In this document: positions 21,495 through 33,348 of the stretch, piece after piece
Layout: every line of letters begins with the position of its first letter
Position numbering within the stretch: position 1 is the first letter of the stretch
Assembly: GCA_002011035.2 (NCBI GenBank)
Contig: MTLY02000001.1
Location: 375,342-439,341 of the forward strand
Direction of reading: 5' to 3'
Length of the DNA stretch: 64,000 nucleotides
Source of the DNA: Candidatus Hecatella orcuttiae
Lineage (GTDB): Archaea > Thermoproteota > Bathyarchaeia > Hecatellales > Hecatellaceae
The notes under the pieces: model-generated
What the model was told of the DNA's origin: nothing
Database searches by the model: none
What the model saw: only the letters and a program-made list of their open reading frames with translations
Made by a program: the position numbers and the translations under genes

Positions 21495-21590
21495 GCCGCC
21501 GTAACGTAGCCGGGTAGCGTACAGACACTCGAATGTGGGTGGTGCAGGCCTGTGGAGCCTGGAGGCCGGGTTCAAATCCCGGCGGCGGCC
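21495..21590 (+). tRNA. tRNA-His (GTG), probable intron, genome-encoded G-1 at 21494
   Basis: Acceptor GCCGCCG/CGGCGGC, D-stem ACGT/GCGT with AGCCGGGTA loop, anticodon arm CAGGC-CTGTGGA-GCCTG, T-arm CCGGG-TTCAAAT-CCCGG, C73; 23 extra nt upstream of the anticodon loop; no encoded CCA. Confidence 0.9.
21525..21547 (+). other. Putative 23-nt tRNA-His intron (around 29/30; boundary ambiguous within a CAG repeat)
   Basis: Removing ACACTCGAATGTGGGTGGTGCAG restores a perfect 5-bp anticodon stem; CAG occurs at both junctions. Confidence 0.65.
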
Positions 21591-32954: not shown

Positions 32955-33144
32955 TCCGCAGCCAGATCTAGATTCGCCGAAAAAGTTCAACGAGGCCGGA
33001 CTGTTTTCTGTCTTCGGTCTCCCAACCGGCAAAACTAGCTTGAGTGAATACAGTCTTTAAGCTTCGTTTTTTGGAGTCTAAAGTTCAAAAGATATAAGCA
33101 GAGGAAACATAATTTTTTAGAAGGGCCCGTGGCGCAGCTGGATA

Positions 33145-33160
33145 GAAAGCCCCCCATAAA
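33145..33160 (+). other. Putative 16-nt tRNA intron in the D-loop (about 21/22, boundary ambiguous by 1-2 nt)
   Basis: GAAAGCCCCCCATAAA separates AGCTGGATA from the GCGC D-stem 3' strand. Confidence 0.6.
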
Positions 33161-33176
33161 GCGCATCGGCCCTCTA

Positions 33177-33196
33177 TGCGTAACAAGCTCGGGGGA
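33177..33196 (+). other. Putative 20-nt canonical 37/38 tRNA intron
   Basis: TGCGTAACAAGCTCGGGGGA; flanks can form a bulge-helix-bulge with CCTC/GGGG and bulges TA^T and GA^A. Confidence 0.6.
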
Positions 33197-33348
33197 AGCC
33201 GGGGGTCAGGGGTTCGAATCCCCTCGGGCCCGCCACTTTTTGATGAGGAATCGACTTTAGTTATCTTGATTTTTGGTGTTGCTTGTCGTGGACTTTTATT
33301 CGAGTCATCTTGCTCGTTGCGCTGTGATCTACTGTATGCCCGGATGTT

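Follow-up and report, generated by a model that had tools for sequence, protein, structure and literature searches.

The tRNA-Arg(UCU) gene at positions 33123-33235 (plus strand) of the window, by which we mean the whole 64,000-nucleotide stretch of Candidatus Hecatella orcuttiae DNA under analysis, is interrupted by two short introns, and the question raised by this locus is whether such a gene still produces a tRNA. With a probability of roughly 0.92 we consider it a single-copy functional tRNA-Arg(UCU) gene carrying two BHB-type introns, at sites 37/38 and 20/21, that would be cut by an (alpha-beta)2 endonuclease and the exons joined by RtcB.

In standard mode ARAGORN calls no tRNA in the unspliced gene, and removal of the anticodon insert alone results in an erroneous tRNA-Ala call. 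When both introns are removed, the program reports tRNA-Arg (tct) over positions 1-77, and this in silico spliced product of 77 nt forms a full cloverleaf with an encoded CCA. The Rfam tRNA model aligns to 33123-33232 (43 bits, E 8.6e-6), with insertions relative to the model in the D-loop and 3' of the anticodon. Both programs are therefore in agreement with the first-pass annotation, according to which the stems form once 16 nt and 20 nt are removed and leave a 77-nt tRNA ending in CCA. Exon 1 (33123-33143, plus strand; GGGCCCGTGGCGCAGCTGGAT) holds the 5' strand of the acceptor stem, positions 8-9, the 5' strand of the D-stem and the D-loop up to 20a, and was assigned from the Rfam match, the alignment of orthologues and the ARAGORN recognition of the spliced product. 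Exon 2 (33160-33176, plus strand; AGCGCATCGGCCCTCTA), assigned from the orthologue alignment and ARAGORN on the spliced form, contains the 3' strand of the D-stem, the 5' strand of the anticodon stem, C32, C33, the anticodon UCU and A37. Exon 3 (33197-33235, plus strand) starts with A38 and continues through the 3' strand of the anticodon stem, the variable loop and the T-arm to the 3' acceptor strand, G73 and the encoded CCA, and was assigned from the Rfam match and ARAGORN on the spliced form. A TATA-box-like sequence read 25-33 nt upstream of the tRNA (AGATATAAG, 33090-33098, plus strand) presumably serves as an archaeal tRNA promoter, and the T-run read directly 3' of the CCA (33237-33241, plus strand) is a possible archaeal terminator.

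The canonical 37/38 intron (33177-33196, plus strand, 20 nt; TGCGTAACAAGCTCGGGGGA) is placed exactly where it was first annotated. Its BHB motif has a CCTC/GGGG central helix (CCUC/GGGG in RNA) and the bulges TA|T and GA|A, with the minimum-energy fold favouring a helix slid by one base instead. At this site the orthologues have introns of 12-31 nt or no intron at all. Position 33 of the tRNA (33172 in the window) is a C and not a U; U33 is near-universal, and C33 is unusual in an elongator tRNA. The same C33 recurs in Arg(UCU) orthologues with and without introns from several families of Bathyarchaeia, including the intronless gene of G001, and it has been remarked on as unusual in tRNA-Cys of Sulfolobales (PMC7668247). 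It is also present in tRNA-Gly(UCC) and tRNA-Gly(CCC) of the host genome (loci L011 and L015), and C-to-U editing at position 33 is possible. Shifting the loop to obtain U33, and thereby the anticodon CUA, was rejected, since the stem would break and the orthologues with U33 have CUUCUAA, i.e. UCU.

The D-loop intron (33144-33159, plus strand, 16 nt; AGAAAGCCCCCCATAA) lies between 20a and 21, i.e. at site 20/21. Its size and the mature product are as originally described, but its boundaries had to be moved one base to the left because this position fits the alignment of relatives and the BHB geometry; the earlier boundaries were replaced accordingly. The central helix of its BHB motif consists of the three TGG/CCA pairs and a mismatched C x U, with the exon strand CTGG (33138-33141, plus strand) forming three of four pairs with the intron strand CCAT (33154-33157, plus strand). 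The bulges, AT|A and AA|A, are the most frequent forms across 31 orthologous D-loop introns. A BHB or relaxed BHB motif is defined by a 4-bp central helix and two 3-nt bulges, and with three of four central pairs and an inner helix of 1 bp the motif in the window is relaxed at best. The opposite BHB orientation, where the 5' end of the intron pairs with the 3' exon, was not used, as it is the other one that suits the canonical introns of the class.

Comparison of 31 distinct 20/21 introns from Bathyarchaeia showed near-constant exons and variable introns of 13-28 nt in which the BHB core is kept. The layout common to all is that exon bases 6-3 from the end pair with intron bases 6-3 from the end, and the bulge consensus is A(U/C)|N and A(A/G)|A. 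In this register 118 of the 124 central-helix cells are paired versus 31-73 when the register is slid, where it should be noted that the search pattern itself demanded TGG, CCA and an A-rich 3' bulge, so that their conservation is not independent evidence. The outermost pair was left free by the pattern; it is paired in 27 of the 31 introns, as U-A, C-G, A-U or U-G, and the covariation has a permutation p of about 1e-4, uncorrected for relatedness and shared ancestry. The D-loop intron of the window is among the four exceptions, having the C x U mismatch. These data bear on a very unlikely alternative, in which the anticodon intron alone is spliced and the D-loop insert is retained as an enlarged D-loop. 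Such a tRNA is conceivable, as the D-stem is unbroken by the insert and the other arms could still form, but the inserts vary in length and sequence while the splice motif persists and one of its pairs covaries, the D-loop is of normal size in intronless orthologues, and many orthologues have the D-loop intron alone in a class that has a suitable enzyme.

The reading with both introns spliced was further examined among the relatives of the host genome (G000; 1.75 Mb in 3 contigs, 97% complete, listed contamination 4.25%), which include G022, G012, G052 and G059 within the same class. When 84,980 bacterial and archaeal species were scanned with the D-loop intron pattern for tRNA-Arg, 30 loci in 30 species were found, every one titled Candidatus Bathyarchaeota or Bathyarchaeia. 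In silico splicing of 36 Bathyarchaeia genes gave nearly identical products of 74-76 nt, with a mean column identity of 89% in an alignment of 12 of them. Two genomes from the same family as the host, G001 and G002, have contiguous, intronless tRNA-Arg(UCU) genes, to which the spliced product of the window gene is identical at 68/74 and 65/74 positions, respectively; the D-loop intron is missing from the intronless family orthologues L210 and L209. It belongs to a family of introns found repeatedly within Bathyarchaeia, and the claim that the gene has several introns, including a non-canonical one in the D-loop, in a host outside Thermoproteales holds, given the placement of the host in Bathyarchaeia and the pattern matches.

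The introns of tRNA-Arg(UCU) are scattered over the families of the class. Genes without introns are found in families f1 and f5, the 37/38 intron alone in f4, f18, f19 and part of f8 and f16, and the 20/21 intron alone in f6 and f22. Both the 20/21 and 37/38 introns are present in f1, f14, f16 and f23, whereas f11 combines 22/23 with 37/38 and f10 combines 9/10 with 37/38. Such a patchy pattern suggests that Arg(UCU) introns were gained and lost repeatedly in the class. In one tRNA-Arg(UCU) gene (L211, G025:C24:6700-6940, reverse strand) the D-loop insertion is about 60 nt and the exon sequence CTGGATA is repeated at its end, which may indicate that it was inserted recently. That the split structure is an artefact of assembly or binning of a metagenome-assembled genome has an almost negligible probability: the uncultured relatives are indeed MAGs and the host assembly has the listed contamination given above, but it consists of only 3 contigs with the gene located mid-contig, and the same structure is seen in independent assemblies from other studies.

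If the gene is functional, a demand for its product should be expected from the codon usage. AGA is the commonest Arg codon, accounting for 178 of 551 in 24 sampled ORFs of the window, and a second Arg(UCU) gene was found neither among the 41 host tRNA genes from the Rfam and T-arm searches nor by an anticodon-arm pattern, with the reservation that this inventory is incomplete (Phe, Tyr, two Gln, Ser-CGA and Pro-UGG were not found by these searches). These observations weigh against an exceedingly improbable reading, namely that of a decaying copy which suffered two chance insertions and is left unspliced. The weak BHB motif of the D-loop intron, C33 and the low covariance model score of the unspliced gene would be in line with decay; against it speak the intact stems after intron removal, the encoded CCA, the heavy use of AGA with no other Arg(UCU) gene in these searches, and the finding that 30 other species have a D-loop intron at this site. 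Neither broken stems nor, in these searches, a redundant copy, the hallmarks of a pseudogene, are seen here, and decay, which had been kept open as an alternative from the start, is disfavoured by the copy number, the codon usage and the shared D-loop intron. The window gene is very probably functional and spliced.

The host genome contains two genes for PF01974 (tRNA-splicing endonuclease) with subunits of 184 and 189 aa, located around G000:C2:15840 and C2:374760. The 184-aa subunit keeps the Y121/H129/K160 triad and matches A. pernix EndA (3p1z) over its full length (E 1.2e-46), and its K40 aligns with Lys44 in the crenarchaea-specific loop of that enzyme. The conserved lysine of this loop is described as needed for broad substrate specificity (PMC6379350). 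The 189-aa subunit has a proline at the catalytic histidine (KEP versus KEH in M. jannaschii), as expected for a structural subunit. The heteromeric endonuclease that the first-pass annotation had suggested looking for is thus represented by two subunits having the triad and the loop lysine in sequence, and it probably has broad specificity. An RtcB ligase gene (PF01139, 589.8 bits) is also present, so the gene content accounts for both cutting and joining, and the window gene is probably processed by the ordinary archaeal tRNA-splicing enzyme. The gene's own promoter would drive synthesis of the precursor, and the two-subunit (alpha-beta)2 endonuclease, which would tolerate imperfect BHB motifs, would cut both introns. 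The anticodon intron probably leaves first and the D-loop intron after it, since the in silico formation of the D-loop BHB depends on prior removal of the former: Vienna assigns its central helix a probability of about 0.05 in the intact precursor, rising to 0.70-0.75 when the anticodon intron has been taken out. The C-run of the D-loop intron pairs with G-runs elsewhere when the full precursor is folded to minimum energy, which gives only a hint about the splicing order. The exons would then be joined by RtcB and the mature tRNA charged.

The interest of the window gene stems largely from the surrounding genome. A BHB-aware decomposition gave, by a conservative count, about 45 introns in about 41 host tRNA genes, several of which (Lys-UUU, Ser-GCU, Ser-UGA and Trp) have three introns. 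The tRNA-Lys(CUU) gene (L028, G000:C1:85094-85254, minus strand) has four, and its spliced form is identical at 72 of 73 positions to a contiguous intronless gene of G002 (L217); the published maximum in the literature consulted is three introns per tRNA gene (PMC8450103, PMC4033280). Published means are 0.84 introns per tRNA gene in Thermoproteales and 0.21 in all archaea studied, and Pyrobaculum calidifontis has 71 introns in 46 genes (PMC8450103). The tRNAs absent from the host inventory (Phe, Tyr, two Gln, Ser-CGA and Pro-UGG) may be encoded by genes that are disrupted still further, or that are split or permuted. 'Twintrons' suggested by the solver in tRNA-Trp, -Glu and -Asp are not claimed, as single longer introns may explain these genes equally well. 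The window itself contains a tRNA-His(GUG) at 21495-21590 with a 23-nt intron at 29/30 (21525-21547), for which ARAGORN gives tRNA-??? with a wrong anticodon. Neither of the two tRNAs of the window is correctly found by this program, illustrating how intron-rich tRNAs of this kind escape or mislead standard gene finders.

All five host genes with an intron at 7/8, 8/9 or 9/10 have a heptamer 12-16 nt upstream that is able to pair with the 3' acceptor strand along its whole length, as compared with 1 of 35 among the other host tRNA genes (Fisher p 9e-6). Four of the five heptamers repeat the 5' strand exactly and the fifth has a G-U pair. The leader-bearing loci, which lie outside the window, include L126 (G000:C2:30210-30490), L137 (G000:C3:346590-346850) and L144 (G000:C3:415560-415800), as well as L030, L141, L188-L195, L201-L204 and L038. 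When 257 Bathyarchaeia were searched for tRNA-Thr genes interrupted at 8/9, with the leader ignored, eight real genes were obtained, six with exact leader copies and two with five-base copies, and in the f10 tRNA-Arg(UCU) with its 9/10 intron the leader is complementary to the 3' strands of both T-stem and acceptor. Folding of the precursors predicted that in most genes the 3' acceptor strand is bound by the leader (0.87-1.00) instead of by its own 5' strand, the pairing being weakly predicted for L126, L141 and both genes with partial copies. The leader may act as a placeholder that occupies the 3' acceptor strand for as long as the true 5' strand is engaged in the intron BHB, and is swapped out after splicing. 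We give even odds to this model, in which the leader is a new precursor element accompanying extreme intron expansion. If functional, the leader copies would explain how a tRNA tolerates an intron that captures its acceptor strand, and the two-intron tRNA-Arg of the window would be one case of the accompanying expansion to up to four introns per gene. No report of leader copies of the acceptor strand was found in the literature searched.

Massive tRNA disruption is tied mainly to Thermoproteales. The intron load of this Bathyarchaeon beside intronless orthologues within its family provides a second, apparently recent, case of intron expansion, and with such close relatives one can compare how introns were gained and lost and how they co-evolved with the splicing enzyme. 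Introns in the D-arm occur in Thermoproteales, Aigarchaeota and other archaea. That the D-loop intron is notable merely for lying outside Thermoproteales, as had been proposed, is not supported, since 20/21 is among the archaeal tRNA intron sites listed in PMC4090602 and Caldiarchaeum is reported to have D-arm introns (PMC3293823). For Bathyarchaeia no report of D-arm introns and no tRNA-intron survey was found in the literature searched, and the window gene is a known kind of intron-bearing tRNA in a lineage where it seems undocumented. Its D-loop intron resembles the non-canonical 20/21 introns of Thermoproteales and other archaea in site, size and a BHB-type motif that is at best relaxed here, and also in sharing its gene with a 37/38 intron (PMC4090602, PMC6379350), but differs in that its host belongs to Bathyarchaeia. 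The endonuclease resembles the (alpha-beta)2 EndA of A. pernix (3p1z, 3ajv) in the full-length match, triad and loop lysine of its catalytic subunit, whereas the best PDB sequence matches of the 189-aa subunit, 5x89 (an EndA fusion chain) and M. jannaschii EndA (1a79), rank above A. pernix. Another close parallel outside Thermoproteales is the aigarchaeal Ca. Caldiarchaeum subterraneum, which likewise has D-arm introns and multi-intron tRNAs, although there it is other tRNAs that have several introns, and 13 of 45 genes contain introns as compared with roughly 25 of 41 in the present host (PMC3293823).
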